This document shows, one piece after another, positions 487 through 62,837 of a stretch of 62,837 nucleotides of DNA (its first letter is position 1; every line of letters starts with the position of its first letter). Under the pieces are notes generated by a model. The model ran no database searches. It worked only from the letters and a program-made list of their open reading frames with translations, and was not told the DNA's origin. The position numbers and the translations under genes are program-made. Location: positions 1 through 62,837 of the forward strand of contig CATNBA010000009.1 in assembly GCA_950096985.1 (NCBI GenBank). The letters run 5' to 3'. The stretch is from an uncultured Candidatus Melainabacteria bacterium. Its GTDB lineage: Bacteria; Cyanobacteriota; Vampirovibrionia; Gastranaerophilales; Gastranaerophilaceae.

Positions 487-583
487 ACTCATCCACACTT
501 TCTACGCCCATTCAGTGCTCCCGGAGCCTTCTTTCCCGGTAAAACCCCTGCTTTCCACAAAAAGCTTATCTCCCGGACAGTCC

Positions 584-1108
584 CTACTTTCCCTGGTAGC
601 AAATCGCCGAATCCAGACGATATCCCGCCAGCTTCTCTCTGCCTTTCAGTCCTGCCAGCTCCATCAGCACCACGATTCCCACAACTTCTCCGCCCAGGCT
701 TTCCACCAGCTTCACCATGGCTTCGGTGGTTCCTCCTGTGGCGATGAGATCGTCCACTATCAACACCTTCTGACCCGGTTGAATGCTGTCCTTATGCATC
801 TCAATGACGGCACTGCCATACTCCAGATCATAAGAGACAGAGACCGTTTCTCTGGGAAGCTTCCCTGCCTTCCGAATCAGAACGAAGGGCTTTTTATTAT
901 TATAAGCAATGGGCGTTCCAAATATAAATCCCCTTGATTCAGGTCCGGCTACCACATCGTAATCCAGGTCCTTCACCAGCTCCTGCATGGTGTTCACTGC
1001 CAGCTGCAGCCCCTCTGCGTCCTGCAGCACACTGGTCACATCCCGGAAAATAATCCCTTCCTCGGGAAAATCAGGGATACTGACTACGTATTCTTCCAGT
1101 TTCTTCAT
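584..1108 (-). CDS. apt: adenine phosphoribosyltransferase
   Basis: This 174-residue protein has the full length of bacterial Apt. It carries the N-terminal I-P-D-F-P-x-x-G-I-x-F-R-D signature, the A-G-P-E-S-R-G-F segment, and the PRPP-binding loop V-L-I-V-D-D-L-I-A-T-G-G-T-T near residues 117-130. It converts adenine and PRPP to AMP in the cytoplasm (purine salvage). The start places MKKLEEYV at 1108. It lies about 100 bp upstream of relA on the same strand and downstream of the CBS-domain gene, suggesting cotranscription. Its G+C-rich codon choice fits a Lachnospiraceae-like origin. Confidence 0.96.
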   Translation of the reverse strand: MKKLEEYVVSIPDFPEEGIIFRDVTSVLQDAEGLQLAVNTMQELVKDLDYDVVAGPESRGFIFGTPIAYNNKKPFVLIRKAGKLPRETVSVSYDLEYGSAVIEMHKDSIQPGQKVLIVDDLIATGGTTEAMVKLVESLGGEVVGIVVLMELAGLKGREKLAGYRLDSAICYQGK

Positions 1109-1153
1109 CTTAACTACCTCTTTTCCTGTATGTATTTTCGTTCTCGCCGTCTG

Positions 1154-1570
1154 TCATTCTCTGTTCTGGTCCACAAAATATTTTATGATATCACTTCTGG
1201 TGACAATGCCGATAAAGACACTTCTATCGTCGATAACCGGTACAAAATTCTGATTTTTCGCCCGTTCCAGCAGATTCTCCATAGCCGTGTCAATGCAGGC
1301 CGGCTTTACCTTTCCATTCTGCAGAAAGTCCCTCACGGTCATATGCTCCAGATTCTTCAATGTGATATCCTCCAGATTCTGATTATAGGCAAGTATATTC
1401 CAGAGGAAATCCGCCACGCTGATCACGCCTACATATCGGTCCTCCCTGTCAATGACAGGTATGGCTGAAAATCCGCTTCTGCGCAGTTTCTCAAGTCCCT
1501 GCCGCAGCGTCATATCGTCCCGCAGATATGCCACCTCCGCCTTTGGCAATAAAAAAGATGCTATATTCAC
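1154..1570 (-). CDS. CBS-domain-pair protein
   Basis: A 138-residue protein made almost entirely of two CBS motifs: one around residues 15-60 (S-A-I-P-V-I-D-R-E-D-R-Y-V-G-V-I-S) and one around 75-130 (N-F-V-P-V-I-D-D-R, then I-G-I-V-T-R-S-D-I). CBS pairs usually bind adenine nucleotides and act as energy or second-messenger sensors, and stand-alone versions regulate partner proteins. Its ATG overlaps the end of the upstream DUF308 gene by 4 bp, so the two are probably translationally coupled. No catalytic domain is visible and the partner is unknown. It belongs to the G+C-richer left segment. Confidence 0.88.
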   Translation of the reverse strand: MNIASFLLPKAEVAYLRDDMTLRQGLEKLRRSGFSAIPVIDREDRYVGVISVADFLWNILAYNQNLEDITLKNLEHMTVRDFLQNGKVKPACIDTAMENLLERAKNQNFVPVIDDRSVFIGIVTRSDIIKYFVDQNRE

Positions 1571-2283
1571 AATTCCGCTCCTTCATCACTGACTTTTTCC
1601 GACATCTCTTCGTCACTTTTCTCCGCCCCGTCTTCCCTTAGCGCCTCTTCTGCGCCATTCTCTTCCTGCTCTCTGCGGGAATTACTTTCCTTCACTATCT
1701 CTTCCACGAAGCTGCTGTCCACAACCTCCATGCGGTCCACAAACCTTTTGAGCCCGGCGGCCACATAGACAGCTGTTATGCAGTCCGTGACACCACTGAA
1801 AATCAGTCCCGCACCCACAAGCTGGAACAGCAGAATCACCGTATCAAAAGGATTGGCAATCAGTATCACACCGAAAATCACATTGATAATAGCCAGAATC
1901 AGCATCACCGTCCAGTTCCCATATCCGGCCCGTTTCATGTCGATTACATTCTGCAGCTTGCCGCAGCCGCTGGCCAGCACCAGAATCCCCAGTATCACGG
2001 GAACCAGAGAGATAATCCATTCCACCTTATAGAGAAAAAGAATGCCTACTGCTATGCCCACAAGCCCATACTCGAAATCATGTCGGTAATAGTTCAGGCT
2101 GTTGTCTCTCAGCAGATAGCAAATCATGGACACAGCCCCAACCAGAATGAGCAATATCCCAATCAGATACCCCAATGTCTTAATCATTGTCTCCGGAATG
2201 ATAAGCGCCACAATTCCCAGCACCACATACAGCAGGGAACTCAGTATGGCATCCCACTTGACTTTTTTCAGCAGTTCTTTCAT
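1567..2283 (-). CDS. DUF308 (HdeD-like) membrane protein
   Basis: A 238-residue protein with about six hydrophobic helices in residues 10-175, in the pattern of DUF308/HdeD proteins (for example VVLGIVALIIPETMIKTLGY). A charged, Glu-rich cytoplasmic tail follows from about residue 190 (many EE, ED and EK pairs). HdeD was named for acid resistance in E. coli, but the molecular role of the family is not established. A GGGAGG ribosome-binding site lies just upstream of the ATG, and the 3' end overlaps the CBS gene. Coupling to a CBS sensor suggests, by inference only, a regulated membrane function. Confidence 0.82.
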   Translation of the reverse strand: MKELLKKVKWDAILSSLLYVVLGIVALIIPETMIKTLGYLIGILLILVGAVSMICYLLRDNSLNYYRHDFEYGLVGIAVGILFLYKVEWIISLVPVILGILVLASGCGKLQNVIDMKRAGYGNWTVMLILAIINVIFGVILIANPFDTVILLFQLVGAGLIFSGVTDCITAVYVAAGLKRFVDRMEVVDSSFVEEIVKESNSRREQEENGAEEALREDGAEKSDEEMSEKVSDEGAEL

Positions 2284-2313
2284 TCTTCATTCCTCCCCGT
2301 AGAAGAAATTTTT

Positions 2314-2345
2314 TTACAAAAAGAACTCTTTTCGCCGAAAAGAGT
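2314..2345 (-). terminator. intrinsic terminator after the SEC-C gene
   Basis: On the minus strand a perfect 9-bp stem (ACTCTTTTC pairing with GAAAAGAGT, 2325-2345) with a 3-nt loop is followed by a short T-rich run at 2322-2314. It sits between the SEC-C gene and the DUF308 gene, so it either ends the SEC-C transcript or attenuates read-through. Confidence 0.7.
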
Positions 2346-2389
2346 CCTTTCTCTTCCTGTGAACGGCCACTGTCAGCCTTCCTGGTCAC

Positions 2390-2893
2390 TTACCTTTTAC
2401 CGCAGCACTTCTTATATTTCTTGCCGCTTCCGCAGGGACATGGATCGTTTGGATATATTTTAGCACCCTTCACAATCGTGGTGGAGGATTTCTGCTCCTT
2501 ATACAGAGCCTTTCTGGTATCTTCGTCAAAAATATCCTCCCACTCTTCCAGATTATACAGCCAGTCGGCTTCGGCGGCCACCATATTCTTATAGAGAAGA
2601 GCCTTATCAAAGCCTAAATTTACCTCCGTATCCTCTTCCATCTCCTCAATGGGATTGGCCTCCTTCAGGCTGTCATTGATGCCGTCCAGGAAACCGGTCA
2701 TTGTCATGACAGATACCTCATATTTATCGGCCAGCTCCTTCACCGTGCCCTTCACCACATCCTCCGGATTCTTCAGAAGTTCAGCGTAAATCTCCTTCTC
2801 CTCCTGAAAATAATCCTGCCAGAGCGCCTGCAGTTCGTTCTTATCTGCCGACTCATTGTATGCAATTTCTCTCCATTTCTCCAATAAAGCCAT
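2390..2893 (-). CDS. SEC-C metal-binding motif protein
   Basis: A 167-residue protein whose last 22 residues are a canonical SEC-C zinc motif ([16 protein letters not shown]), as at the C-terminus of SecA. The first 140 residues are acidic and helical, with no signal peptide or membrane segment, so the protein should be cytosolic. Homologues of this layout are known mainly in Clostridia; their role is not established, though SEC-C domains bind SecB or ribosomes in other proteins. A GGTGG ribosome-binding site and a full promoter (2976-3004) lie upstream. This is the last gene with Firmicutes character before the composition changes. Confidence 0.85.
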
Positions 2894-2975
2894 ATTCTAC
2901 CACCTTTTAAATCTTTCCGGCCTGCAGCCGGATGTATTCTTCCGCGGAGAATTCCGAGTTTTTTCCGCTTCTAAC

Positions 2976-3004
2976 AGTATATACCAGATTATCATCGAAG
3001 ACAA
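2976..3004 (-). promoter_or_regulatory. promoter of the SEC-C gene
   Basis: On the minus strand TTGTCT (3004-2999), a 17-bp spacer and TATACT (2981-2976) form a good sigma-70/SigA promoter about 83 bp upstream of the SEC-C start codon. It is the last element that clearly belongs to the G+C-richer segment and sets the left limit of the composition junction. Confidence 0.65.
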
Positions 3005-3027
3005 TAAAAAATTTTTTAAAATAATAT

Positions 3028-3055
3028 TTGAAATTTAAAATGTTTCTGTTATTAT
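3028..3055 (+). promoter_or_regulatory. promoter of tRNA-Leu
   Basis: TTGAAA (3028-3033), a 16-bp spacer and TATTAT (3050-3055) precede the tRNA by 21 bp. The layout is the same as at tRNA-Ser near the right end (TTTACT, 16 bp, TATTAT), which ties this promoter and its tRNA to the AT-rich genome. Confidence 0.6.
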
Positions 3056-3076
3056 AAAGAAGTGAAAATTAAATAA

Positions 3077-3160
3077 GCCGAAGTGATGAAATTGGTAGAC
3101 GTGCTAGACTCAAAATCTTGTGTGGGCAACCACGTGCCGGTTCGAGTCCGGCCTTCGGCA
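3077..3160 (+). tRNA. tRNA-Leu (anticodon CAA)
   Basis: The gene folds as a class II tRNA. The acceptor strand GCCGAAG (3077-3083) pairs with CTTCGGC (3153-3159), the D-arm contains TGGTAGA, the anticodon loop is CTCAAAA giving CAA, there is a variable arm, and the T-arm contains GGTTCGAGTCC. The discriminator base is A and CCA is not encoded. The anticodon stem has one U-U mismatch. A promoter lies upstream and a strong terminator immediately downstream, so it is a single-gene transcript. Confidence 0.97.
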
Positions 3161-3193
3161 AATAAAAAGACACCTAACAGGTGTCTTTTTATT
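3161..3193 (+). terminator. intrinsic terminator of tRNA-Leu
   Basis: AATAAAAAGACACC and GGTGTCTTTTTATT form a perfect 14-bp stem around the loop TAACA directly after the tRNA. The T-run is part of the stem, so the hairpin could work in both directions and also serve the convergent histidine kinase gene. Confidence 0.85.
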
Positions 3194-3224
3194 TGATTAA
3201 TTAACAAAACAAACATTACAGAAA

Positions 3225-3965
3225 TTACCAGCAAATAGAGGCATCCTGGCAACTGCACAAAGGTATTTCAAAAATAAATTTATTACATGTTCCATTACAA
3301 TCCAGATATATTTTGCCGTTATGAGCATCTATAACCTTTTTTGCAAAATAAAGTCCAAGACCAGTTCCTGACTGAGAACCCGAAACATGTTTTTCAAAAA
3401 TATGTTCTTTTATTTCAATAGGAATTTCCGGACTACAATTTTCAAAACAAAATATCATATTTTTATTATCTTTGAATACAGATATTATCAAATCACTATC
3501 ATTATAAGAATAATTAAGAGAATTATTAAGTATATTTGAAATAACTCTACGTAACTGTATTTCATCCGCATTAACTTCTAAAACATCTGATTTGAAATCT
3601 AGTAAAATATTTATATTTTTATTACATGCGAATGATTTTACTTCATTTATACAATTTTGTATCAATTCCTTAGCACTAAATTCTTTCTTAACTAAATATA
3701 TAACTCCATTATCAAACTTATATGAATCAAGGATTGATTGAAGCATATCGTGCATGTAATTTGAGGATTCCAAAATTATATTAAGCATTTCTTTCTGCTT
3801 AGAATTCAATTTCCCAAATGTTCCTTCCGCAAGCATTTTTATACTCAATAATTGTGCTTGAACAGGATTTTTCAAATCATGTGCAAGCGTTGCAAATAAT
3901 AACTCTTTTTTCTTTAAATCATTAGTATCCAATTCAGAGCATGATACATTAACACTTCTTGACAT
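3225..3965 (-). CDS. soluble sensor-less histidine kinase
   Basis: A 246-residue protein consisting of a HisKA dimerisation domain with the H-box A-H-D-L-K-N-P (phosphorylatable His near residue 29) and a HATPase_c domain with an N-box (N-I-L-N-N-S-L near 143-149) and a G2 box (G-T-G-L-G-L-Y-F-A-K near 195-205). No transmembrane segment, PAS or GAF domain is present, so input must come from a partner protein. No response regulator is adjacent; the nearest is at 35,552. The ATG has a TGAGGT ribosome-binding site and a near-consensus promoter upstream. AT-rich codon use matches the rest of the chromosome. Confidence 0.9.
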   Translation of the reverse strand: MSRSVNVSCSELDTNDLKKKELLFATLAHDLKNPVQAQLLSIKMLAEGTFGKLNSKQKEMLNIILESSNYMHDMLQSILDSYKFDNGVIYLVKKEFSAKELIQNCINEVKSFACNKNINILLDFKSDVLEVNADEIQLRRVISNILNNSLNYSYNDSDLIISVFKDNKNMIFCFENCSPEIPIEIKEHIFEKHVSGSQSGTGLGLYFAKKVIDAHNGKIYLDCNGTCNKFIFEIPLCSCQDASICW

Positions 3966-3983
3966 AAACTTACCTCAAAAGGC

Positions 3984-4012
3984 ATTGTATACCAATAACT
4001 CAAATTTGACAA
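3984..4012 (-). promoter_or_regulatory. promoter of the histidine kinase gene
   Basis: On the minus strand TTGTCA (4012-4007), a 17-bp spacer and TACAAT (3989-3984) form a near-consensus housekeeping promoter ending 19 bp upstream of the kinase start codon. Confidence 0.7.
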
Positions 4013-4016
4013 TAGC

Positions 4017-4475
4017 CTATAAGCCCAAACGCTTTTTTATTTTAACTAGAGTGAGCATATTATTAAAATATTGAGGACAATAGTTATAAGGTGTCATTAA
4101 AGGAACAATATTTTTTAATTCTTTAGAAGCAGTTTCTCTATCATACATTTCATCTACATATGTGTGAATTAACATAGTGACAGAATTAGTCGACGCATCT
4201 AAAACAGGACAAAATTCTTCATTTTTATTCGCCTGTGCATCCTATTTGTTTGTAATTAATAACACCTTGCAGTCAGTGTTACGTTTTTTTATAAATTTAA
4301 ACTTGCTAAAAGGATTTGAATTACTAACAATTAAACGTGCAATCAATTCATCATCCGCGCATATATTCTGTGCATTAATATTAATCTGTTCAATTCTGTA
4401 TTTATTAATACCGAAAGCTATGAATAATAGCACTAAGCAACCAATTAAAATAAAACAAACTTTTTTATAATTCAT
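4017..4475 (-). pseudogene. small membrane-anchored protein gene interrupted by an in-frame TAG
   Basis: Reading from ATG 4475, 77 codons encode a protein with an N-terminal hydrophobic anchor (FILIGCLVLLFIAFGI) and a soluble tail, ending at TAG (4244-4242). The same frame continues without interruption for 74 more codons (starting D-A-Q-A-N-K-N-E-E-F-C-P) to a second TAG at 4017-4019. The second half is as protein-like as the first, so the simplest reading is one gene of about 152 codons with a nonsense mutation. I recognise no family. No clear ribosome-binding site is visible. TAG terminates many other genes here, so genome-wide recoding is unlikely. Confidence 0.55.
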
Positions 4476-4621
4476 ATTTATATTATAAACTATTTTTCTG
4501 AATATGCAAGATTTACATTTATACATACTTTGTATTTTTTTTAATCTTTTTTGGTAACATAAAAAGAAATAGCAAAAAATTTTTTGTTCGGTTTTTAAAA
4601 TAGCAGAAAAGGATTTACAAA

Positions 4622-5479
4622 TTGCAAAACACTTTAACTCGTAACGAAATTAATAACAAAAAAAGTTTTCTACAATCCGAAACAAATCTTTGTATTTTCA
4701 TTGAAGCAAGACTGAAACAAATTTTTTCAGATGAATTAAATTCACATTATTCAATATTTCGCAAGGTAAAACCATCTGCTATCCATAAAATGGCATTATT
4801 CTTATCAGGAGCCATTACAAGATCTTGTTCTATAGGAATTGCGGGCGAAACAGCAAGCGGTAAATCAACTATCGCTTACGATATTATTGATACTATACAA
4901 AAATTTGCAAATGAGTATTCTATACAAGATGCAATTACAAGAATAAATACTGACGATTATTATTATGATCGTTCGGAAATGGTAAAACAGGCAGGAAGTT
5001 TTGCGGAATTTGCAAAACACTACGATTTGGATGTTCCTGAGGCTCTTGAACTTGAATTAATGAAAAAACATATCAAAACTTTATTATATGGCGAGGCTGT
5101 ATATTTGCCGGAATATGATATGTCTGGTACAGCAAGAAGAACTGATAATGTAAAACTTGCAAAACCTTCAAAAATAATTATTTCAGAAGGTTTATTTACA
5201 CTTACTGAAAAAGTGGCAGATGCATTTGATTTTAAAATATTTGTAGATGTTTCAACACAATCTCAAAAAGAAAGATTTTATAAAAGAGCAGTTGAAAGAG
5301 GCTTAGGGGATTCTGCCGATGAAGTATATAGAAATGCATCAGATAAAGCAAAAACACATATACATCCAACTGCAATGAAAGCTGATATTATTTTATCTGG
5401 AGAAGCAGACAGAGCTGCATATAGAAGATTTATCAGCAAAATACTTGCCCTTATTGAAGAAATACATTATAATAAATAA
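4622..5479 (+). CDS. uridine kinase / phosphoribulokinase-family protein
   Basis: A 285-residue P-loop kinase. The Walker A motif G-E-T-A-S-G-K-S-T lies near residues 76-84, then T-D-D-Y-Y-Y-D as in uridine kinases, P-E-Y-D-M-S-G-T-A-R-R as the substrate lid, and I-I-I-S-E-G-L-F as the strand before the effector loop. Family enzymes phosphorylate uridine or cytidine with ATP or GTP. The N-terminal 60 residues are extra and rich in Lys and Asn, so the substrate is uncertain. The start used is TTG at 4622 with AAAAGGA 9 nt upstream. The next gene starts 20 bp after the stop and may be cotranscribed. Confidence 0.75.
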   Translation: MQNTLTRNEINNKKSFLQSETNLCIFIEARLKQIFSDELNSHYSIFRKVKPSAIHKMALFLSGAITRSCSIGIAGETASGKSTIAYDIIDTIQKFANEYSIQDAITRINTDDYYYDRSEMVKQAGSFAEFAKHYDLDVPEALELELMKKHIKTLLYGEAVYLPEYDMSGTARRTDNVKLAKPSKIIISEGLFTLTEKVADAFDFKIFVDVSTQSQKERFYKRAVERGLGDSADEVYRNASDKAKTHIHPTAMKADIILSGEADRAAYRRFISKILALIEEIHYNK

Positions 5480-5498
5480 CAGACTTGGAGAAAATAAA

Positions 5499-6476
5499 TT
5501 GCGAATAACAGCACCCTACAATACCGGCGCACGTTTACCGATGTTTACGGGCGAACAGAATAAAGATAAAAAATATACAGACCCCTTAATGAATTGGCCT
5601 GTTCGCGGGCTTGCTTATACTAACGAACTCGGTGCCGCATTAAGTGAAATTGCTCCGAAAGTAGGTGTCTTATTATGGTTCCCTGCAATGCTGTATTTCG
5701 GGGCTGATATTTATGACAAGTATAAAAATGAAAAAACTTCATATGACCCTAACGCACAAAGAGGTACTGAACAGGCAATATTCCAACTTTTAGCCAGTGT
5801 TGTACTGCCAACAGCTGCCGTTATTGCGGGACAAAAGACAGCTTCTGTAATGGGTTCAATGGGTAAAACAGGGTTAACTCTTCAAACACAAGAAGAAGTT
5901 ATAAACTTCATGGATGAATTTAACAGCAGAAGACATTTTGGTAAATTTGTAAACAAAAGGCAAGAATTCAAAGACCATTTTGTTGAATCTTTCACAACAA
6001 AACGCGAAAAATTAATTAGAGAACACAAAATAAAAAATCCAATTAAGTTTTTAACTGACGCTATATTCACAACCAGACACCCCGAAGCAATTGCTATGTC
6101 ACAAAAGGATAAAGTTCTAAAATTTGCGGATCAAAATATAGATTCAATGTTCAAAATGTATGATGAATTGATGTCAAATAAAAAACCACAAGAGTTTTCT
6201 TACAAAATGTGGAAAAAATTCAATAAATTAAAAGAAAAATATGCCAAAGATCCTGACTACAAAACAACTTATTTAAGGGACGCTTCAGAAGATATTATCA
6301 AAAAATTCCAAAAAAACAAAATGACACGTGCAAAACTTTTAAAAACAGTAGGCGGTTTTGTGGCACTGGGACTTGCTATTAAACCGATAGATCATTTTGT
6401 TGAAACAGTTGTAATTAAAAAAGTTGTTGAACCTAATTTAAGCAATGTCTTTAATAAGAACGAACAGAAAGCTTAA
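5499..6476 (+). CDS. lineage-specific membrane protein with FTG motif
   Basis: A 325-residue protein from a TTG at 5499, chosen because GGAG lies 8 nt upstream; a longer reading from 5445 would overlap the kinase gene. Near the N-terminus is M-F-T-G-E-Q. Hydrophobic segments follow at about residues 48-68 and 90-120, then a long Lys-rich region, and a final hydrophobic stretch near 285-310 ending V-V-E-P-N-L. No known domain is recognised. It resembles in layout the proteins at 9485, 47467, 48042 and 50262: an N-terminal hydrophobic pair, a charged middle and a C-terminal helix ending in a Pro-containing motif. Function unknown. Confidence 0.75.
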   Translation: MRITAPYNTGARLPMFTGEQNKDKKYTDPLMNWPVRGLAYTNELGAALSEIAPKVGVLLWFPAMLYFGADIYDKYKNEKTSYDPNAQRGTEQAIFQLLASVVLPTAAVIAGQKTASVMGSMGKTGLTLQTQEEVINFMDEFNSRRHFGKFVNKRQEFKDHFVESFTTKREKLIREHKIKNPIKFLTDAIFTTRHPEAIAMSQKDKVLKFADQNIDSMFKMYDELMSNKKPQEFSYKMWKKFNKLKEKYAKDPDYKTTYLRDASEDIIKKFQKNKMTRAKLLKTVGGFVALGLAIKPIDHFVETVVIKKVVEPNLSNVFNKNEQKA

Positions 6477-6904
6477 ACTGCTATTTTTACAACTACCTTT
6501 TTAACTTGTTGCCCTTTTCCCATTTGCGGTCTATGTGCCTCATGAGGATATATCATGGCAAACTTAAAAGGTTTGAGCTGTAATGTATCAGGAGTTTTTT
6601 CTGAATTTTCAAAGAACATTACATCTCTTTTTTCATCATAAGGTTCACTTATTTTTAACTCATTGACCGGAACATAATCAAGTTCTTCTTCACCTTGAAT
6701 AAGCATTTGAATATCAATATATTTTTTATGCGCCTCAAATTTGCAATTTTCAAGCGGTTTTGTGTTATAAATATCTATATTTGCATACGCTGTGTCATCA
6801 ATTTCATAATGCCCGGTTTCTGTAGGCAAATTCATTAAAAAGCTAACAACTTTTTCTGAAACTATATTATAATTTTCCAAATTTTTTATATTGTCAGTAA
6901 TCAT
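6473..6904 (-). CDS. YhcH/YjgK/YiaL-family protein
   Basis: A 143-residue single-domain beta-sandwich protein of the YhcH/YiaL (EbgC-like) family. It shows F-E-A-H-K-K-Y-I-D-I-Q, then E-E-L-D-Y-V-P and the metal-ligand segment Y-P-H-E-A-H-R-P near residues 119-126. Family members bind a metal and are linked to sialic acid or other sugar metabolism, possibly as sugar epimerases or lyases; no single reaction is settled. Its ATG overlaps the transketolase stop in an ATGA arrangement, so it is the last gene of a sugar-related unit. It converges with the preceding plus-strand gene, overlapping by 4 bp. Confidence 0.88.
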   Translation of the reverse strand: MITDNIKNLENYNIVSEKVVSFLMNLPTETGHYEIDDTAYANIDIYNTKPLENCKFEAHKKYIDIQMLIQGEEELDYVPVNELKISEPYDEKRDVMFFENSEKTPDTLQLKPFKFAMIYPHEAHRPQMGKGQQVKKVVVKIAV

Positions 6905-53573: not shown

Positions 53574-53589
53574 AGGAATATACTCATGC

Positions 53590-53678
53590 GGAGTAATGGC
53601 CGAGTGGCTGAAGGCGGCACCCTGCTAAGGTGTTATGTGGAGCAATCTGCATCTAGGGTTCAAATCCCTATTACTCCG
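53590..53678 (+). tRNA. tRNA-Ser (anticodon GCT)
   Basis: An 89-nt class II tRNA. Acceptor GGAGTAA pairs with TTACTCC, discriminator G. The anticodon stem CACC/GGTG surrounds loop CTGCTAA with anticodon GCT, and there is a long variable arm. The T-arm contains GGTTCAAATCC. CCA is not encoded. The last 17 bp (53661-53677) recur with one mismatch at 53857-53873, which marks this tRNA as an integration site for a genomic island. Confidence 0.96.
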
Positions 53679-53682
53679 AATA

Positions 53683-53903: not shown

Positions 53904-54050
53904 TTAATCTTTTATTAAAACATGATTACCATTAATAGTTACCCATTTCCCGTCTGCTTTTTCTGAAGTGGTTGAATAACTTTTTTCTTTTTCATGTGTT
54001 TTGGCATCTGACGGTAAATCGTTTTTGTAAGGAATTCCGATACTGTTCAT
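53904..54050 (-). CDS. short phage-derived protein fragment
   Basis: A 48-residue frame from ATG 54050: MNSIGIPYKNDLPSDAKTHE, a Ser/Lys-rich stretch, then K-A-D-G-K-W-V-T-I-N-G-N-H-V-L-I-K-D and stop. The W-V-T-I-x-G-x-H-V-x-I motif is one I associate with ends of phage head or MuF-type proteins. There is no good ribosome-binding site and no upstream coding region, so this is probably a remnant of a larger phage gene. It lies between the tRNA repeat and the Mu-like module. Confidence 0.4.
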   Translation of the reverse strand: MNSIGIPYKNDLPSDAKTHEKEKSYSTTSEKADGKWVTINGNHVLIKD

Positions 54051-54287
54051 TTGGGCAAGTGTTAAGAAACAGGACAATACAGAAAAGGGGAACCAGCCTT
54101 AAAGTCACTGAATATAAAAGAATTTAGGAGTTTTTAGGGTTGCAGAAAAGTCCGATATGTCCGATTTTCGTCATTATTGCGTCCTGAAAAGGTCTAAATT
54201 TATAGAACAATATGCCCAAAAGCCTTATTTCTGTAAGGGAATATCGATTGACAATCATTGGACTTTTGGTATTTAAAAAGTAACATT

Positions 54288-54358
54288 GGTTCCGGAAAAA
54301 ATATTTTTCTGTTACTAAACGGAACCTTAACGGAACTTCTAGAGGAACCAAACGGAAC
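54288..54358. promoter_or_regulatory. array of CGGAAC boxes, downstream side of the Mor-like gene
   Basis: GGTTCCG (54288-54294, inverted) is followed by CGGAAC at 54320, 54331 and 54353 and AGGAAC at 54343. The direct copies start 10-12 bp apart, about one helical turn. They run into the last codons of the Mor-like gene. They look like repressor operators or transposase end-binding sites. Confidence 0.6.
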
Positions 54359-54674
54359 TTTTATTTTTTACCATTTTTCCTTCAACATGTTCTTTAATTA
54401 CTTTATAAACATATCTGGTGGTTGTTTGACATTCTCTTGCAAGTTTGTTGTAATTATCTGTAGCTATATAATTATCTATAATGTATTGTCTTTTATATGC
54501 TTGGTTGCAATGGGCATGGATAGAAAATTTCTGTCCAGCCGCACGGAACATTAATTTCTTTGTTGCTTCTAAGCCAATGATAGAGCATAGATATTGCAAA
54601 TCTTCGGTTGGCAAATTATCTTCTGTAATGTATTTTGCCCATGCGGGTTCTTCAGGTTCTTGGCGTCTAATCAT
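54339..54674 (-). CDS. Mor-like HTH transcription regulator
   Basis: A 111-residue protein. Residues 20-50 (N-L-P-T-E-D-L-Q-Y-L-C-S-I-I-G-L-E-A-T-K-K-L-M) fit the Mor activator family of Mu-like phages, in which a dimerisation helix follows this motif. The C-terminal 60-95 region has an HTH, with Y-I-I-D-N-Y, N-K-L-A-R-E-C-Q-T-T-T-R-Y-V-Y-K-V-I. It is divergent from the MuA-like gene and flanked by CGGAAC boxes on both sides. In Mu the place next to A is held by the c repressor, so this gene may repress or activate the transposition genes. Homology is moderate. Confidence 0.65.
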   Translation of the reverse strand: MIRRQEPEEPAWAKYITEDNLPTEDLQYLCSIIGLEATKKLMFRAAGQKFSIHAHCNQAYKRQYIIDNYIATDNYNKLARECQTTTRYVYKVIKEHVEGKMVKNKSSVWFL

Positions 54675-54748
54675 ATTATTCCTTTAATTTTGGTATGTAG
54701 CTTTTCATCTGACAGAGTTACACTTACCCCTTTTCTTTATTATAGTAC

Positions 54749-54781
54749 AAACGGAACCAAATTCGGTTCCGTTTAGTTCCG
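54749..54781. promoter_or_regulatory. CGGAAC operator cluster between Mor-like and MuA-like genes
   Basis: AAACGGAACC (54749-54758) and its inverse GGTTCCGTTT (54765-54774) form a 10-bp inverted repeat with a 6-bp spacer, followed by a third, inverted copy GTTCCG (54776-54781). TATAAT for the Mor-like gene lies at 54743-54738 on the minus strand, and TACAAT at 54801-54806 could serve the MuA-like gene, so the boxes sit between and over both promoters. The leader from 54807 to 54941 holds no ORF I trust. Confidence 0.65.
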
Positions 54782-54941
54782 TTTTAAAAAATTTTCTTAG
54801 TACAATAAATATTTTGTTTTTTCAATATCAGAAAAACAATGTTTTTGTGGGTTTGAAGTGGCAGTTGTTGATATGTTTCGATATGGATACATTGACTACA
54901 CATATATCTCAAGCAGAGTTAATGTGTGAGAGGAGATAATT

Positions 54942-56912
54942 ATGCAAAACTCAAGTGATTACTGGATTACAACTAAAGAACTTGCACAAATTAAAGGTGT
55001 ATCTGAAAGAGCAGTTCGTAAGGCAATAAGCAAAAATAAATATGTTATAAGAAAATGCTCAAAATCTTACGAAATTCTGGTAACATCTTTGGAAGAAAAT
55101 GTTAGAGAAAAAGTAACATCAAGCAAAGAAAAACCTGCCCAACTTATACCGATAAGTTATATAGTACCTGAAGCTCAAAAGAAATTGGCTCTTGCAAAAT
55201 ATGATTTAATCAAAAAATGGGATGAATATAGAAATACCAAGAAAAATAAAACAATTGCTGGAAAAGATTTTATTGATGCATACAACAGTGGCTGTATTTG
55301 TAATGATTTGTTTAATATTGTCGGCAAAGTTGCTATTGGAACAATTTATGAATGGCATAAGAAACTCCGTTTTAATAATGATGATTGGCACTGTTTGATT
55401 AACAACTATACGTTTGGCGAAAAAACTAAAAAATCTAATTTATCTGAAGAAGAAAAGTCTGAACTTTTGAAAAATCTTCTTCATCCAAACCAGTTAAACA
55501 TAGGAAAAGCAATCAAATATACAAAAATGGCATTAACTCACCGTGGATTTAAAAATTTGTGCTGCGATTTAACATATAGAAGATTTGCCAACAATTACAA
55601 AAATGAACATTATAACATTTGGGTTGAGGCAAGAGAAGGTAATAAAGCTCTGCACGATAAGGTTTTACCATATATCACAAGAGATATTTCAAAACTGGAA
55701 GTCGGGGATGTTATTGTTGGCGATGGTCACAAATTAGCATTTTTTGTTAAGCATCCATATAAAGGGACTTTTGTAAGACCGACTTTGGTTGCTTATCAAG
55801 ATTGGAAATCAGGCGGTTTTGTCGGGTTTGAAATTATGTTGGAAGAAAATACTCAATGCATTGCAAGTGCATTAAGAAACTCAATAATAAATTTAGGTAA
55901 GGTTCCAAAATATGTTTATCAAGACAATGGTAAAGCTTTTAAGGCAAAATATTTTATCGAAAATGGAATAACGGGATTATTTACCAATCTTGGTACTCAG
56001 CCGATTTATGCAAAACCCTACAATGCAAAGGCAAAGCCTATTGAAAGGCTATTTAGAGAGTTGCAAGATAGTTTTGAAGTAATACTTCCATCTTATACTG
56101 GCACAAGTATCGTCAAAAAGCCTGCTCAATTAAAAAGAAACGAAAAACTTCATAAAGAAATTTTTAAGGTCAATATTCCAACAATAGAGCAAGTTGTAAG
56201 AGTTCTTGAGATTTGGTTGCAAAAATATCATTACGAACAAAAATGTCCACATATTGAAGATAAAACAATAGGCGAAGTTCTTGAAAGCGGTAGAGGTGAA
56301 GGGATTAATATTGATACTTTAGATGACCTTATGATGGCTCGTGAAATTAAAAACATTTACAGAAACGGGATTTTATTTCTCAAAAATAATTATTATGACG
56401 AAGCGTTATTTGGTTATAAAAAGAAAGTAATTATTAAATACAGCTTGTTCGATTTGAGCTCAATTAAGGTTTACAAATTAAACGGGGAATTTATATGCAC
56501 CGCTAAAAGAGTTGAACCTGTTCACCCGTTAGCAAATTATTTGGGCGAAGCAAAAGACATAGAAGACTTAAAACAAAAAACAAAATTAAAGAAACAGTTA
56601 GAAAAAAGAACGGAACAAGAATACATAAATCATCTAAAACGAAATCAGGTTTATACTCCACTATTAACAATGGATTTACCTGAGAAACAAAAAGAGGATG
56701 AGATAAAACAATTCAGCCTTGAAGTTAAAGCGGATTTCCAAGCAGAAAATTTAAACGGCTGTTTCAAAACAAGATTTGAAAAGTATGAGCACTTGATTAA
56801 GAAAGAAAATCTTACCAAAAGTGAACAAGACTGGATTGCAGAATATAGATTAACGGATGAATACGAACAAATATATGGCGAAGAAGATAATAAGGAGGTA
56901 TTTAATGCGTAA
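54942..56912 (+). CDS. MuA-like DDE transposase
   Basis: A 656-residue protein in the MuA/TnsB-type integrase-like superfamily. N-terminal residues 8-45 are a Mu-type HTH (W-I-T-T-K-E-L-A-Q-I-K-G-V-S-E-R-A-V-R-K-A-I). The catalytic core spans about residues 250-385 with D261 (V-G-D-G-H), D328 (Y-Q-D-N-G) and E368 (K-P-I-E-R-L-F). A beta-barrel-like region and a charged C-terminal helix follow. It should cut and join transposon ends with the help of the downstream ATPase. GAGAGGAG is the ribosome-binding site. It overlaps the ATPase gene by 8 bp. Identity with phage MuA is low. Confidence 0.88.
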   Translation: MQNSSDYWITTKELAQIKGVSERAVRKAISKNKYVIRKCSKSYEILVTSLEENVREKVTSSKEKPAQLIPISYIVPEAQKKLALAKYDLIKKWDEYRNTKKNKTIAGKDFIDAYNSGCICNDLFNIVGKVAIGTIYEWHKKLRFNNDDWHCLINNYTFGEKTKKSNLSEEEKSELLKNLLHPNQLNIGKAIKYTKMALTHRGFKNLCCDLTYRRFANNYKNEHYNIWVEAREGNKALHDKVLPYITRDISKLEVGDVIVGDGHKLAFFVKHPYKGTFVRPTLVAYQDWKSGGFVGFEIMLEENTQCIASALRNSIINLGKVPKYVYQDNGKAFKAKYFIENGITGLFTNLGTQPIYAKPYNAKAKPIERLFRELQDSFEVILPSYTGTSIVKKPAQLKRNEKLHKEIFKVNIPTIEQVVRVLEIWLQKYHYEQKCPHIEDKTIGEVLESGRGEGINIDTLDDLMMAREIKNIYRNGILFLKNNYYDEALFGYKKKVIIKYSLFDLSSIKVYKLNGEFICTAKRVEPVHPLANYLGEAKDIEDLKQKTKLKKQLEKRTEQEYINHLKRNQVYTPLLTMDLPEKQKEDEIKQFSLEVKADFQAENLNGCFKTRFEKYEHLIKKENLTKSEQDWIAEYRLTDEYEQIYGEEDNKEVFNA

Positions 56913-57594
56913 ATTATTTGTAAAAACCCATAATGTCAAAAACTTCGTAGAATTAATGAACAACCTTATTGATAAATCTAATGAAGTTCCAAAAATGGGA
57001 TTAGTATATGGTGATCCCGGATTAGGTAAAACCAGAGTCGCAGTTTGGTGGGCAAATAGAAATGATGCGGTTTATGTTAGGGCTCAAAACAACATGACAA
57101 GTCACGGAATACTGGAAAAAATTGTTGAAGAACTGGGTGAAGCTCCGTCTAAAAAATCTACAGATTTAATAAAACAATGTATTGCACATTTAAGACTCAA
57201 TCCACAAGTTATCATCATTGATGAGGTTGACTATCTTATAGGTCGTTTTAAAACAATTGAAACATTAAGAGATTTACACGATTTAACAGGAGCGCCTGTT
57301 GTATTAATCGGAATGCAAGAAGCCAAAACAAAACTTGGGAAATTTAGGCACCTATATGACAGAATTTCTGAAATTGTAGAATTTAAAACTTTTTCCAAAG
57401 ACGATATGGAAGTTATTGTTGAAGAATTATCCGAAATTAAAATAACAGACGAGGCAAAAGAAATATTTTTTGAAAAATCAAACCGTTTTCGTCAAGCAAT
57501 TAAAGGCATTGCAACCTTAGAAAATTTAGCAAAAACAAACGGATTAAATAAAATTGATGTAAAACAAGTGAAAGGGCTAACCATTGAAAAATAG
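56905..57594 (+). CDS. MuB/TniB/IstB-like AAA+ ATPase
   Basis: A 229-residue ATPase. Walker A G-D-P-G-L-G-K-T at residues 36-43, Walker B V-I-I-I-D-E at 102-107, and a sensor region V-V-L-I-G-M-Q-E near 129-136, followed by R-I-S-E-I-V-E-F. MuB-type proteins polymerise on DNA, select targets and activate the transposase. The C-terminal half is helical. I start at ATG 56905 because a perfect AAGGAGG lies upstream; the frame can be extended to 56857 but that lies inside the transposase gene. Confidence 0.9.
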   Translation: MRKLFVKTHNVKNFVELMNNLIDKSNEVPKMGLVYGDPGLGKTRVAVWWANRNDAVYVRAQNNMTSHGILEKIVEELGEAPSKKSTDLIKQCIAHLRLNPQVIIIDEVDYLIGRFKTIETLRDLHDLTGAPVVLIGMQEAKTKLGKFRHLYDRISEIVEFKTFSKDDMEVIVEELSEIKITDEAKEIFFEKSNRFRQAIKGIATLENLAKTNGLNKIDVKQVKGLTIEK

Positions 57595-59227
57595 AGATTT
57601 AATTATAAAATCAGCAAGAAGATTAGATAAATTCACTCTTGATGATATAATCTTGGTTTCAGAGATTGATGAACAAGAAGTCGCAGATATTTTATCAGAA
57701 TTATTAAATGAAAAAATTGTCGTAAAAAACAATAATACTTACTTCTTTAATATCAAAAACAAAAGCAAAAATGGTAAGATAGCCTTCGAAACGGAGATTG
57801 AACCAATCATAATTGAAAAAGAAGAAGGTTATGATTATTTTCTCACCCTGAACAAAGAAACCCAAGAACGTATCAGAAGTTATATTGATTTGCTAAACTT
57901 TGTAAATCAAGCAGGTGGCAAAAATCTAAAACAACTAGTTGAATTATTTAATCAAACATCGGGTTACAAAAATATTTCTCTTTGTACATTGGGGCGGATA
58001 CGAACAAATTATAAAAGATATGGTTTTAAAGGTATTTTACCTTCATATAGTAAAGGTAATGTTGAATGTTCCATACCTGATGAACTATACAATTATTTTA
58101 AAAAATATTATTTAACTAATCAGAAATTGTCGGCAACAGATGCGATTTATCAAGCTCAAAAACAATTACAAGCAGAACAAAAAATCGAGCAACCTTATGC
58201 ACATACATCCGGTGCATTCTTGAGAAAATTAAAATCAGAATTTAAACCGCAACAAATTGAATATTTTAGAAATAACATAGTTCCACCCAAAGAAAAATCA
58301 GAAACTAAAAAAGAAATAAAAGAGCCTTTGGATATGCTATTTAAGGATGCAGCAAAAATATATTTTAACAGACTAAAAACAGAAAATAAGTTTGAGAGAA
58401 TAATGCATCAGAAAACAGATTATAAAAACCACTTGAAAGAATATTTTGGAGATTTACGGATAAGAGAAATCACAAATAAAGTTGTGGCAAGGTTTAAACA
58501 AAAACAATTTGATAGCGGATATCAGCTTATTTCTGTAAATATTTATATTTTAACTCTTAAAAATATTATTAATGCCGTTTGTCCTAAAACAAATTATCTT
58601 GTATCAAGAAGTAAAAGTCTTAAAGAAAATACTTATGCTATGGATATGAATTTATTAACCGAAAATCAAATTTCAAAATTACTGGACATTTGTTATAAAA
58701 AATATCCTGAAGCCTATCCGATATTGTACATTTCCTTATCTACAGGGGCAAGTATCCCCGAGTTATTGGGATTAACTTGGGATAGAATTGATTTTAGAAA
58801 TGAAATAATTTTTCTAAAATACTTTCTATATGGTGATAAACTCGTTATGACTAAATGCAATTCTACAATGCGTAGATTGAAAATAGATTGGAATATTTGT
58901 GAGGATCTTGAGTACAAATACCATATATCAGATCCTGAACCTAATGATTTTATTTTTAGATTTGAGAGTAATAAACAACCTCAACAGTATATCGAAGAAA
59001 ATGTTTTGCAACCCTTAGCAAAAGAAATTGGTGTTTCAAAATTAAATCCGAGTGATGTTCAACATAATTTTGTTAATATGTGTATTAAACAAAATATTCC
59101 GCTCACATATATTCAAAAATCACTTGGGTACTATGGGATAACCAATTTTGTTAAGGTATATCGAAATTTAATAGAACAACAAGAAGAAGATTATTATAAT
59201 CCGCTTGATAAGATTTTGAAAAAATAA
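57584..59227 (+). CDS. fusion of Mu-transposase-like DNA-binding region with degenerate tyrosine recombinase
   Basis: A 547-residue protein, starting at TTG 57584 with AAAGGG upstream and overlapping the ATPase gene by 11 bp. Residues 1-55 resemble a winged helix. Residues 95-225 (T-L-G-R-I-R-T-N-Y-K-R-Y-G-F-K-G and later K-L-S-A-T-D-A-I) look like the end-binding HTH region of MuA/TnsB transposases. Residues 250-335 match a core-binding SAM-like domain and 355-530 a phage-integrase fold. In that fold the catalytic set is mostly lost: Arg I is Ser390 in T-G-A-S-I-P-E-L-L-G-L, the HxxR motif is S490-D-V-Q493 and the second His is Tyr516. K424 and Tyr526 remain. So it probably binds DNA rather than cutting it. 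Confidence 0.75.
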   Translation: MKNRDLIIKSARRLDKFTLDDIILVSEIDEQEVADILSELLNEKIVVKNNNTYFFNIKNKSKNGKIAFETEIEPIIIEKEEGYDYFLTLNKETQERIRSYIDLLNFVNQAGGKNLKQLVELFNQTSGYKNISLCTLGRIRTNYKRYGFKGILPSYSKGNVECSIPDELYNYFKKYYLTNQKLSATDAIYQAQKQLQAEQKIEQPYAHTSGAFLRKLKSEFKPQQIEYFRNNIVPPKEKSETKKEIKEPLDMLFKDAAKIYFNRLKTENKFERIMHQKTDYKNHLKEYFGDLRIREITNKVVARFKQKQFDSGYQLISVNIYILTLKNIINAVCPKTNYLVSRSKSLKENTYAMDMNLLTENQISKLLDICYKKYPEAYPILYISLSTGASIPELLGLTWDRIDFRNEIIFLKYFLYGDKLVMTKCNSTMRRLKIDWNICEDLEYKYHISDPEPNDFIFRFESNKQPQQYIEENVLQPLAKEIGVSKLNPSDVQHNFVNMCIKQNIPLTYIQKSLGYYGITNFVKVYRNLIEQQEEDYYNPLDKILKK

Positions 59228-59236
59228 GGAGCAATT

Positions 59237-59665
59237 ATGAAAAAGCAAATGTTGGCAGAGTCTGCTGCAAATCTATATATTGAAAAATTTATGACATTAG
59301 AAACTATTGCAAAACAATTAAACGTAAGCGAAAGAACACTTCGACGTTGGAAAGCAGAGGGTAATTGGGATGCAAAAAGATTTAACTATATTCAATCAAA
59401 AACAACATTTCATGAGGATTTGTATAGTTTTGGCAAAAACCTTTTAGATTCAATAATGACAGATATGAAAAACGGTGAAAAAGTAGAGCCCTCAAGAATG
59501 TACACCTTAACTAAAATTATCAATATGCTCAAAAATGTAAAAACTTATGAGGATAAGGTTAAAAACGAACAATTTTTACCAGAGGTTCAAAAATCAGAAG
59601 GTTTATCACCTGATATTATCAAAGAAATTGAAGAAAAGATTTTAGGTATAACTTATGATGGATAA
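59237..59665 (+). CDS. HTH protein like Mu gp27/DUF1804 or small terminase
   Basis: A 142-residue protein. Residues 5-42 read as an HTH with a terminase-small-subunit look: A-A-N-L-Y-I-E-K-F-M-T-L-E-T-I-A-K-Q-L-N-V-S-E-R-T-L-R-R-W-K-A-E-G-N-W. The rest is helical and charged and ends K-I-L-G-I-T-Y-D-G. Proteins of this type in Mu-like phages are DUF1804 or gp27-like. It follows the recombinase fusion by 9 bp with AAGGAG, and it is the last gene of the transposition operon. It may bind DNA ends or act as regulator; no packaging gene is present. Confidence 0.6.
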   Translation: MKKQMLAESAANLYIEKFMTLETIAKQLNVSERTLRRWKAEGNWDAKRFNYIQSKTTFHEDLYSFGKNLLDSIMTDMKNGEKVEPSRMYTLTKIINMLKNVKTYEDKVKNEQFLPEVQKSEGLSPDIIKEIEEKILGITYDG

Positions 59666-60111: not shown

Positions 60112-61116
60112 TTATTCTTCAATAGTTAATAATTTTATGTTTTCTTTTGAAATCATATCAGCAAGTTCTTCTTCTGTTGGAAGAACCGTTTTATATTTAC
60201 TTGCAAAAATCTGTTGGCTTTCTTTTAACACAGAATATTTAACCATTGTTTCAGACTTGTCTGTGCATAAAATTATCCCTAAAGTTGGGTTGTCGTCAGC
60301 TCCACGCTTTAATTCATCAAACATTCTGACATACATATCCATTTGTCCAATATCAGCATGAGTTAGTTTTGTGGTTTTTAAATCAATTACAACAAAACAT
60401 TTTAGGATGTAATTATAGAAAACCAAATCTGCATAGAAATGGTCTGTTTCGGTGCTAATTCTGAATTGACGAGCTACAAAACTAAACCCTTTGCCAAGTT
60501 CAAGCAAGAATTTTTGCAAATTGTTGATTAAAGCTGTTTCTAATACGCTTTCTTTACCTTCAATATTTTCAGGCAAGTCAAGGAATTCTAAAACATATGG
60601 ATCTTTTATAAATTCATTTGTGTCAATTATCATAGGTAAACACTTTTCAGTATCATTCTGCACTTGTGTTGATAAAAGTCTATGATAATAACCACTTTTT
60701 ATGTTTCTCTCTAGTTGGCGATAAGACCAATTCTGTGATGAAGCTTCTTTTAAATAGTAATCACGTTCGCTAGAATTATCTATGCGTAAAATTCGGGCAA
60801 TGTTTGACCAACTCAAATTCGCTAGACACTGTCTGTCGAATTCAGGATATGTGATATAAAATTGGCGCATGTTCTTTAAATTCGCTTCTGAAAAACCTTT
60901 GCCAAAAGTATCCGTAAGGTATTTCGACAAATTTTCAATAAGCTTTGTTCCATATTCTGCTCTTGAACTTCCACCTTGTTCTTCTTCAACAATACGCTGA
61001 CCGATTTTCCAATAAGTTTCGACCATAATGGAATTAACCGAATGATAAGCTTTCGCACGAGCAATATTAAGTAATTCAGCTATATCATTATAAATTTTAG
61101 AAACTTCATTTGCCAT
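60112..61116 (-). CDS. DUF1016/YhcG-family PD-(D/E)XK nuclease
   Basis: A 334-residue protein. The N-terminal DUF1016_N part (Y-W-K-I-G-Q-R-I-V-E-E-E-Q near residues 35-47, F-S-E-A-N-L-K-N-M-R-Q-F-Y near 75-87, L-S-W-S near 101) is followed by a nuclease part with Y-A-D-L-V (D230) and V-V-I-D-L-K-T-T-K (D245 and K247). These are the metal-binding residues of a PD-(D/E)XK fold. The family is common in phage-defence islands and next to restriction-modification genes; a general function is not fixed. No restriction-modification gene is adjacent. A copy of its 5' end lies beyond AbiH at 62271-62375. Confidence 0.9.
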   Translation of the reverse strand: MANEVSKIYNDIAELLNIARAKAYHSVNSIMVETYWKIGQRIVEEEQGGSSRAEYGTKLIENLSKYLTDTFGKGFSEANLKNMRQFYITYPEFDRQCLANLSWSNIARILRIDNSSERDYYLKEASSQNWSYRQLERNIKSGYYHRLLSTQVQNDTEKCLPMIIDTNEFIKDPYVLEFLDLPENIEGKESVLETALINNLQKFLLELGKGFSFVARQFRISTETDHFYADLVFYNYILKCFVVIDLKTTKLTHADIGQMDMYVRMFDELKRGADDNPTLGIILCTDKSETMVKYSVLKESQQIFASKYKTVLPTEEELADMISKENIKLLTIEE

Positions 61117-61165: not shown

Positions 61166-62233
61166 TTATATGTTGCTCAATTGAACTTCTTTTTGTTGGA
61201 CTAGAATGCCTCTTTCAGGGTCATCCTGTTTAATAAATCTGACTTTTGTCATAACTTCTTCTTCGCCAATTATTAAATCAATATTACTCTGCATTCGTGC
61301 CAATGCTTCTTCATCGTGATAATAAATATTTATAATAGATTTTTCCCTTGCTAAAAGTATATGCTTTAAAATATTATGATCAGTTTTATCAAGAGAATGT
61401 CCAATTATATGAAATCTAGGAATATACATTTTTTTAGGATATTTTAGTTCATTTAATAGTTCTTGATATGACTCAATTGTTCCATATTTATGTCTTTGAT
61501 GATGTTTTTTAAATATATTAAATTCAACAGGAATCTGCTCATTGTCAAAACTATGAGTTCCTAAAACTAAATTGCAACAATCCTCATTATTTATTTTCCC
61601 ATGTATATATACTGCTTTTGTTTTTATTCCACAAGTATTATGGTTGAAATTGATTTTATAAAGTTGTTCGCAAGTATCTGTATAATTAAAATTTAATAAA
61701 CTTACACAATCACTATTAAGGCGTAATTTATATTTAGGTGCATTTTGTATTTTTTGAGTTTCTTCTATTAAATATTTTTCAAATTCTTTTACAAAATCCT
61801 GAAGTTGATTATATAAAAAATTAATAAAATCTTTAATTGGCACATTATAGCAATCACCCCTAAAAAAAGAATCAGGTTTTCTAAAATATTTTCTAGATTC
61901 GTCAAAATTAAATCCTTCACAATCTTTTGCTATCCAAAATGCTATATTTTTATATCTTTCATCTGAAACACTGTTTTCAAAATATGACAATTCACTTAAT
62001 TTTACAATTACATTATAAATCTCATTTTCAAGATCAATCCATTTGTCACCAGACAAAATTTTATTTAAAAAGTGCTTAGCCCAAACATTGTTATATAAGA
62101 AGTTGTGACTTTTATCTACCCCCACACTTCTTGTAGTACTGTATTTTTCTTGATAATATTTCAGAAAATCCTCATATTTTGTATCTAAGCCATGTGCTAA
62201 ATCAAATCCATTCCCTAAAATCAAAATATCCAT
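61166..62233 (-). CDS. AbiH-family abortive-infection protein
   Basis: A 355-residue protein. The AbiH signature is at the N-terminus: I-L-I-L-G-N-G-F-D-L-A-H-G-L at residues 3-16, then Y-E-D-F-L. It resembles a nucleotide-binding loop. Further in are L-L-N-F-N-Y-T-D-T-C near 183-192, H-G-K-I-N near 215-219 and I-G-H-S-L-D-K-T-D-H near 280. AbiH in Lactococcus lets infected cells abort phage growth; the mechanism is not known. I start at ATG 62233 with GAGGTG upstream. It lies between two direct copies of the DUF1016 5' region. Confidence 0.9.
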   Translation of the reverse strand: MDILILGNGFDLAHGLDTKYEDFLKYYQEKYSTTRSVGVDKSHNFLYNNVWAKHFLNKILSGDKWIDLENEIYNVIVKLSELSYFENSVSDERYKNIAFWIAKDCEGFNFDESRKYFRKPDSFFRGDCYNVPIKDFINFLYNQLQDFVKEFEKYLIEETQKIQNAPKYKLRLNSDCVSLLNFNYTDTCEQLYKINFNHNTCGIKTKAVYIHGKINNEDCCNLVLGTHSFDNEQIPVEFNIFKKHHQRHKYGTIESYQELLNELKYPKKMYIPRFHIIGHSLDKTDHNILKHILLAREKSIINIYYHDEEALARMQSNIDLIIGEEEVMTKVRFIKQDDPERGILVQQKEVQLSNI

Positions 62234-62270
62234 TTTGCCACACCTCAAACTATCCCAAACAGAATAAAAC

Positions 62271-62476: not shown

Positions 62477-62837
62477 ATGGGTTACAGATTTAGAAAAAGT
62501 ATAAATTTAGGTGGCGGATTTAAAATAAATCTGAGCAAATCTGGTATTGGTTATAGTTGGGGTGTTCCCGGTATGAGATATACTAAGTTAGCGAATGGAA
62601 GGGAAAGATATACTTATTCTATTCCGGGAACGGGTCTCTCTTATGTTGAAGATGCTTCTTCTGGAAGGCATCAGCAACAGCAAACTTATAATGATAATCC
62701 GAATACTGTTGGTGTAATAGAAGAAAAAGTTAGCAACACTGATTTTGAAGGAAATTCTGGTTTTGATGAGTTTATAAAAAAAATCAATGAATTTCGCAAT
62801 ATAGATCAAAACATTAAAACTAGTATATTAATTCTAT
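62477..62837 (+). CDS. DUF4236-domain protein (truncated by window edge)
   Basis: An open frame of 120 codons from ATG 62477 (AGGGGTG upstream) to the window end. It begins M-G-Y-R-F-R-K-S-I-N-L-G-G-G-F-K-I-N-L-S-K-S-G-I-G-Y, then S-W-G-V-P-G, and I-P-G-T-G-L-S-Y, the full DUF4236 domain. The family has no assigned role; it is often joined to other domains or found on mobile elements. The Gln/Asn-rich linker after residue 65 and the helical end suggest that a second domain follows beyond the window. It is divergent from AbiH. Confidence 0.85.
   Translation, partial: MGYRFRKSINLGGGFKINLSKSGIGYSWGVPGMRYTKLANGRERYTYSIPGTGLSYVEDASSGRHQQQQTYNDNPNTVGVIEEKVSNTDFEGNSGFDEFIKKINEFRNIDQNIKTSILIL

Follow-up and report, generated by a model that had tools for sequence, protein, structure and literature searches.

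A Mu-type cargo transposon inserted beside tRNA genes in Candidatus Gastranaerophilales, with an inactive tyrosine recombinase as its probable target selector

The DNA analysed here (the window; 62,837 nucleotides, GenBank assembly GCA_950096985.1, contig CATNBA010000009.1, here C9) is a complete contig of the 1.65-Mb draft genome of an uncultured Candidatus Melainabacteria bacterium and contains the left part of a transposable element with a Mu-like transposition module. Family profile searches identified all five genes of the module at the places given in a preliminary description of this sequence, i.e. a divergent Mor-like regulator, a MuA-like DDE transposase, a MuB-like ATPase, a recombinase fusion (referred to below as the third protein) and a gp27-like helix-turn-helix protein (Table 1). 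The MuA catalytic triad D261, D328 and E368 is present in the translation and the reading frames abut or overlap, in agreement with that description. Genes of the YhcG, AbiH and DUF4236 families follow, and a profile scan of the window proteins encoded after the module revealed no phage structural genes. The extent originally proposed, 54288–59665, holds for the module genes; the element itself begins further upstream, at 54060, and runs past the end of the window.

The left end of the element is TGTTAAGAAACAGG at 54060. In an alignment of four left ends, similarity to the three relatives starts at this position with TGTTAAGAAACAGGACAATACAGAAAAGG. No strong inverted copies of the left end could be found across the window, as contig C9 stops at 62837. 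Using the right-end motif of a relative (G052), the right end was located at position 54330 of C12, near the end of this second contig of the same genome. The pentamer GCAAG stands directly before the left end on C9 and directly after the right end on C12, and joining the two flanks yields a single in-frame open reading frame (ORF) that encodes a muramidase domain (glycoside hydrolase 108). The tail of this restored ORF is probably the 48-codon remnant that had been mentioned, without a position, in the preliminary description; the best candidate for that remnant shows no phage-head match and is the 3′ end of the muramidase gene into which the element inserted. A phage head gene beside the left end is ruled out accordingly. 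Of the element, 8,778 bp have been sequenced on C9 and another 627 bp on C12. Assuming that its cargo is arranged as in the G145b element (DUF4236, a large DUF4011 helicase-nuclease, an ion channel, then the right end), about 5 kb would be missing and the whole element would measure about 15 kb.

Table 1. Features of the element and its left flank in the window
Feature	Position	Strand	Basis or remark
tRNA-Ser(gct), presumed target	53589–53679	+	ARAGORN, Rfam RF00005; 381 bp upstream of left end, 3′ end toward element
3′ piece of interrupted host gene (phage-type muramidase, GH108)	53907–54059	−	Joined flanks; 5′ part on C12, PF05838
Target-site duplication GCAAG	54055–54059		Second copy at right end on C12
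Left end, TGTTAAGAAACAGGACAATACAGAAAAGG...	54060–54365		Kept in relatives; alignment of four left ends, motif scans
Candidate MuA sites around ACAGAAA or GCAGAAA	54078, about 54142, 54227, 54305	+, +, −, −	Motif scans
ACGGAAC direct repeats, candidate operator	54318–54365		Sequence and conservation; more copies, both orientations, at 54748–54790 beyond Mor
Mor-like regulator, divergent from MuA	54339–54674	−	PF08765 (E 1.3e-5, above cut-off); phrog_836
MuA-like DDE transposase	54942–56912	+	phrog_310 (E 2e-94); PF09299; Mu transposase 4fcy_A (PDB)
MuB-like AAA+ ATPase (target capture)	56857–57594	+	phrog_296 (E 1e-50); PF05621 TniB; TnsC and MuB in PDB
Recombinase fusion, third operon gene, candidate target selector	57584–59227	+	PF00589
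Mu gp27/small-terminase-like helix-turn-helix protein	59237–59665	+	phrog_756, PF10668, PF11985
Small conserved ORF, 76 amino acids	59787–60017	−	Found repeatedly in Mu-like elements of these genomes, this one included
YhcG-type PDDEXK nuclease (DUF1016), cargo	60112–61116	−	PF06250, PF17761
AbiH-like abortive-infection protein, cargo	61166–62248	−	PF14253
DUF4236 protein, cargo, cut by contig end	62477–62837	+	PF14020

A search with the left end in 288 genomes of the bacterial family matched 58, some of them by short stretches only. Twelve relatives with both ends known, all from Candidatus Gastranaerophilales, are 10.5–19.5 kb long and bordered by host genes; in their gene maps no phage structural genes were recognised between the ends, the cargo having been scanned as a sample. 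From the left end to the right end they carry variable cargo, Mor (reverse), MuA, MuB, the third gene, the gp27-like gene and again variable cargo. The element of G052 sits within a 61.6-kb contig and is flanked by host genes on either side; its right end is of the same design and its left end starts with TA. The preliminary description had proposed looking for ends starting with TGT and for a 5-bp duplication. Both were found for the element in the window (GCAAG) and, with perfect duplications, for seven of the twelve (TTGGA, GTGGG, TCCGG, CCACA, TTTAT, TACGG, CTTAT). The flanking pentamers are unequal in G052, G177, G208a, G145a and G145b, where both ends are known; mutation of an end or recombination between copies are possible causes. 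Comparison with genomes lacking the element, also envisaged there, produced an uninterrupted homologous site for the G208 copy in two relatives, G281 and G171. The hosts are recorded as Candidatus Gastranaerophilales or as gut bacteria, apart from a single short contig that was binned with Clostridia. The MuB of the window is 98% identical to that of G052, MuA 95% and the fusion 92%, but the host gene trmFO only 61%, so that the element moves between genera.

To characterise the insertion sites, the flanks of 45 left-end loci were scanned with ARAGORN up to a limit of 600 bp. A tRNA gene was present 38–561 bp from the element in 29 loci, on the left-end side in 26 and on the right-end side in 3, and in every case its 3′ end pointed toward the element (29:0). 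The median distance was 101 bp, with 18 of the 29 at 38–112 bp. As 38 tRNA genes are present in the 1.65-Mb host genome, about 0.6 (0.62) loci would be expected, and the excess is approximately 47-fold (binomial P about 6e-43). The targets comprise thirteen tRNA species, and 23 unrelated groups can be distinguished among the flanks. Another three loci have only the 3′ half of a tRNA (GTTCRANTC plus acceptor strand) turned toward the left end; in the loci checked, this motif was never found on the opposite strand. These 3′ halves, together with the different isoacceptors, suggest that it is the T arm or the 3′ end that is read. The tRNA-gene target had not figured in the preliminary description.

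Other Mu-like elements of the same bacterial family were used for comparison. Those whose third protein has 414 or 252 amino acids (a winged helix plus a MuA-like part, without recombinase domains) had a correctly oriented tRNA in 0 of 10 cases, most of the left ends compared being only approximately mapped. A tRNA preference common to all Mu-like elements in these genomes is ruled out by this clade. Elements with a third protein of 184–205 amino acids (a winged helix plus an integrase SAM-like core-binding domain) were found next to a tRNA in 5 of 5 cases, in two of them with the left end about 40–50 bp away.

Two peculiarities of insertion sites were also noted. Similar intergenic sequence, GTACGGATAGATTGAGAT..., occurs at the sites in G148, G319, G115 and G063 (loci L129, L140, L127 and L045) and may be the end of another mobile element. 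In L192 (about −2210 to −2140 before MuB) and at several places in L193, tandem left-end-like repeats lie downstream of a tRNA gene and look as if insertion had occurred repeatedly at one hot spot.

The third protein was modelled with AlphaFold (predicted local distance difference test score, pLDDT, 79; predicted template modelling score, pTM, 0.49), these values meaning that the domains are better defined than their arrangement. The model consists of a winged helix (1–57), a helical middle part and a region (251–546) comprising the core-binding and catalytic domains of a tyrosine recombinase. The latter matches the Tn1549 integrase with Z 18 and a root-mean-square deviation of 6.4 over 259 residues. 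The middle part matches the transposase profile phrog_310, and that of a distant homologue matches PF09039, the Mu Igamma end-binding subdomain. The catalytic residues, whose loss is a further point absent from the preliminary description, are largely gone: R-I is replaced by S390 and H-x-x-R by S490-x-x-Q493, neither of which varies among ten close copies, a tyrosine mostly stands in place of the third-site histidine, and only the nucleophile Y526 is clearly kept. R-I is missing in all 23 aligned third proteins, so the loss is old, and an active recombinase is very unlikely. No relatives of the third gene turned up in a scan of 2.9 million viral contigs. The structural comparison also lists SroF (8bpz, 9rgl and 9rd5 are the entries for the two proteins), a phage repressor with a tyrosine-recombinase fold according to its structure title, and YopR, another such repressor; the likeness to these SPbeta-type repressors is one of fold only. 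The third protein probably selects the insertion target, by analogy with TnsF, a dead tyrosine recombinase shown experimentally to be the comM target selector of Tn6022 (PMC10293859).

The element is a non-viral Mu-type transposon: its ends are defined, the target is duplicated, an empty site exists in relatives, the cargo is of defence type, and its family spreads horizontally and inserts beside tRNA genes in a strongly oriented way. The preliminary description of a Mu-derived transposon with defence cargo, rather than a prophage, is borne out by the ends, the duplications, the empty site and the lack of recognised structural genes in the delimited relatives. We propose, with a probability of roughly two thirds, that this cargo transposon derives from a Mu-like phage and is inserted by MuA and MuB 3′ of tRNA genes, with the third protein as probable selector. 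We infer that the target choice is made by this protein. In such a mechanism MuA would bind both ends and join them to the target with a 5-bp stagger, as seen in the ends and duplications, by chemistry presumed from its family, and MuB would capture the target. Insertion takes place 3′ of tRNA genes of many isoacceptors, statistically usually 40–110 bp away. The dead recombinase half of the third protein may bind the 3′ part (T arm) of the tRNA gene, its MuA-like middle domain and winged helix may link it to the ends or to MuA/MuB, and MuB would thus be loaded beside the tRNA gene. Defence cargo would in this manner be placed at tolerated sites present in every host and spread between genera. 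A more general version is an evenly balanced proposition for us: a dead tyrosine recombinase with a MuA end-binding-type domain would read the 3′ part (T arm) of any tRNA gene and direct MuB/MuA 40–110 bp downstream, as a general bacterial tRNA-gene homing system evolved separately from TniQ/TnsD, TnsF and CRISPR (clustered regularly interspaced short palindromic repeats) guides.

Several observations weigh against the proposal. Thirteen of the 45 loci have neither a tRNA gene nor a 3′ half within reach, although two of these have less than 110 bp of flank and most lack a known right end. The elements in G202, G148 and G188 have perfect duplications, yet neither end has a tRNA gene within 600 bp, and L175, L178, L188 and L189 have full recombinase-type third genes and are not near tRNA genes. 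No other structured RNAs were detected near the ends of the tRNA-less insertions at the gathering threshold. The evidence tying the third protein to the target comes from comparing clades, and in the MuB tree it is not clear that the two tRNA-associated clades are independent of each other. Finally, C9 and C12 were joined on the basis of the duplication and the restored ORF, not of reads.

The principal alternative is that tRNA flanks are targeted via MuB, MuA or a factor of the host, be it terminators, transcription or AT-rich DNA, and that the third protein has another role, for instance as an assembly factor or as a phage-type repressor whose recombinase fold is inactive. The appearance of YopR and SroF in the structural comparison makes a repressor the main alternative role for this protein, and the 184–205-residue third proteins, which lack the catalytic domain, go with tRNA insertion as well. 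However, the third gene lies in the MuA–MuB operon while Mor is the divergent regulator, and elements in similar hosts whose MuB is about 46–51% identical and whose third protein is different show no tRNA association. We consider this alternative unlikely, though it deserves more weight than those that follow. Insertion could be near random as in phage Mu, the tRNA association merely reflecting the survival of harmless insertions. The 3′ flanks of tRNA genes are indeed safe sites for many mobile elements, but survival alone hardly accounts for the approximately 47-fold excess and the absolute orientation, some insertions break ORFs next to the tRNA (the muramidase gene; a gene in G208), and the other Mu-like clade of the same bacterial family gave 0 of 10. 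This makes random insertion very improbable. Even less credible is an ordinary or decayed Mu-like prophage with its structural genes past the contig end. The gp27-like protein is a phage relic, its gene being absent from several relatives and often lost, about 5 kb of the copy in the window are unsequenced, and distant relatives of the operon adjoin terminase or tail genes (G069, G046). The last point supports descent from a Mu-like phage; the prophage itself is opposed by the twelve delimited relatives, with host genes beyond their ends and no structural gene recognised in between, by the right end with the expected duplication 627 bp inside C12, and by the lack of viral relatives of the third gene.

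Bacteriophage Mu is the textbook random-target transposon. The element shares with Mu and other transposable prophages a MuA DDE transposase and MuB in one operon, a Mor-type regulator and a gp27-like protein, as well as the 5-bp duplication and TG...CA ends. It differs from Mu by the lack of recognised head, tail, lysis or packaging genes in its sequenced part, by defence cargo, by an additional third transposition protein and by insertion beside tRNA genes instead of near-random insertion. As in Tn6022 with its TnsF, the operon of a DDE/AAA+ cargo transposon here includes a protein whose tyrosine-recombinase fold has lost its catalytic residues. Tn6022, however, is Tn7-like with a TnsABC core in place of MuA/MuB, TnsF has a TniQ partner and carries zinc fingers where the third protein has a winged helix and a MuA-like domain at its N-terminus, and the target is comM, not tRNA flanks. 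No match to TniQ/TnsD or TnsA was found among the window proteins, with about 5 kb of this copy unsequenced and the cargo of relatives known from 25 of 64 families. Mu-like CRISPR-associated transposons, of types I-A and V-F (reviewed in PMC11656645), are likewise cargo transposons with recruited Mu-type transposition genes; here the candidate selector is a protein, and a scan of module and cargo proteins from the sequenced part recognised no cas families, about 5 kb being unsequenced and no dedicated search for CRISPR arrays having been made. Tn7-like transposons also carry defence cargo (PMC8649781) and use sites adjoining conserved genes, including tRNA genes (PMC11656645). They belong to another transposase lineage and use one attachment site, in contrast to the many different tRNA genes used here. 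Retrotransposons of Dictyostelium and yeast target tRNA genes (PMC5006619) and, like the element described here, integrate at tRNA-gene flanks in gene-dense genomes, but with unrelated machinery.

We found no prior description of such elements in the literature on Mu-like transposons, cargo, defence or these bacteria; most subscription papers were outside our reach, and novelty is provisional. With this proviso, the Mu transposition core and the idea of a dead-recombinase selector are known, and their combination and the target range are new. If the proposal is correct, dead recombinases have been recruited as target selectors outside Tn7-like elements, which would also explain the spread of defence islands in uncultured gut bacteria. 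It would further offer a tool for insertion at safe sites; as no bacterium is without tRNA genes, the tool might be usable in all of them.

Among the cargo genes in the window, the YhcG-type nuclease has copies of 89–91% identity within relatives' elements. The AbiH protein has an 81% identical copy within the G148 element, and the DUF4236 family is also found between the ends of that in G145b. The cargo of the relatives was assessed from a sample of 60 proteins and tables of the 25 commonest families (in one list, 25 of 64). Among these families, restriction-modification (N6_N4_Mtase, N6_Mtase, HsdM/S/R, ResIII) and GmrSD dominate, with AbiH, Fic, reverse transcriptase and protein kinase as further cargo. 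The element G208a (L123, 10579–18707) carries sugar-nucleotide and glycosyltransferase-like genes, recognised by eye and not by profile, instead of defence genes. A small tyrosine recombinase of 181–184 amino acids is found in the cargo of L044 (12108–12659), L123 (10579–11133) and L148 (11269–11814), and that of L044 has an apparently intact HxxR motif (HTLR). The 76-residue ORF next to the module recurs, with about 100 bp of downstream DNA, in this family and in C40, L181 and L190; it has no known domain and is possibly a regulator or an anti-defence gene.

A close MuB is present in 125 of the 288 genomes, and Mu-like elements have radiated widely in the bacterial family (L175–L194); their third genes have 186, 252, 414, 508–516 or 568 codons, and their cargo varies. 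L179 and L181, from different genera, have one insertion neighbourhood in common. Elements with proper ends in which MuA or the third gene is deleted or replaced by cargo were seen in L139 (2001–18500), L140 (2002–12456) and L152, with duplications in L139 and L140; we regard them as decayed or moved in trans. The genome of the window itself holds two more Mu-like elements, L005 on contig C40 (G000; 478–6671) and L006 on C38 (4303–7748). In the C40 element a second MuA-like DDE protein follows a winged-helix protein of 220 amino acids, and the C38 element is followed by ATPase and OLD-like genes.

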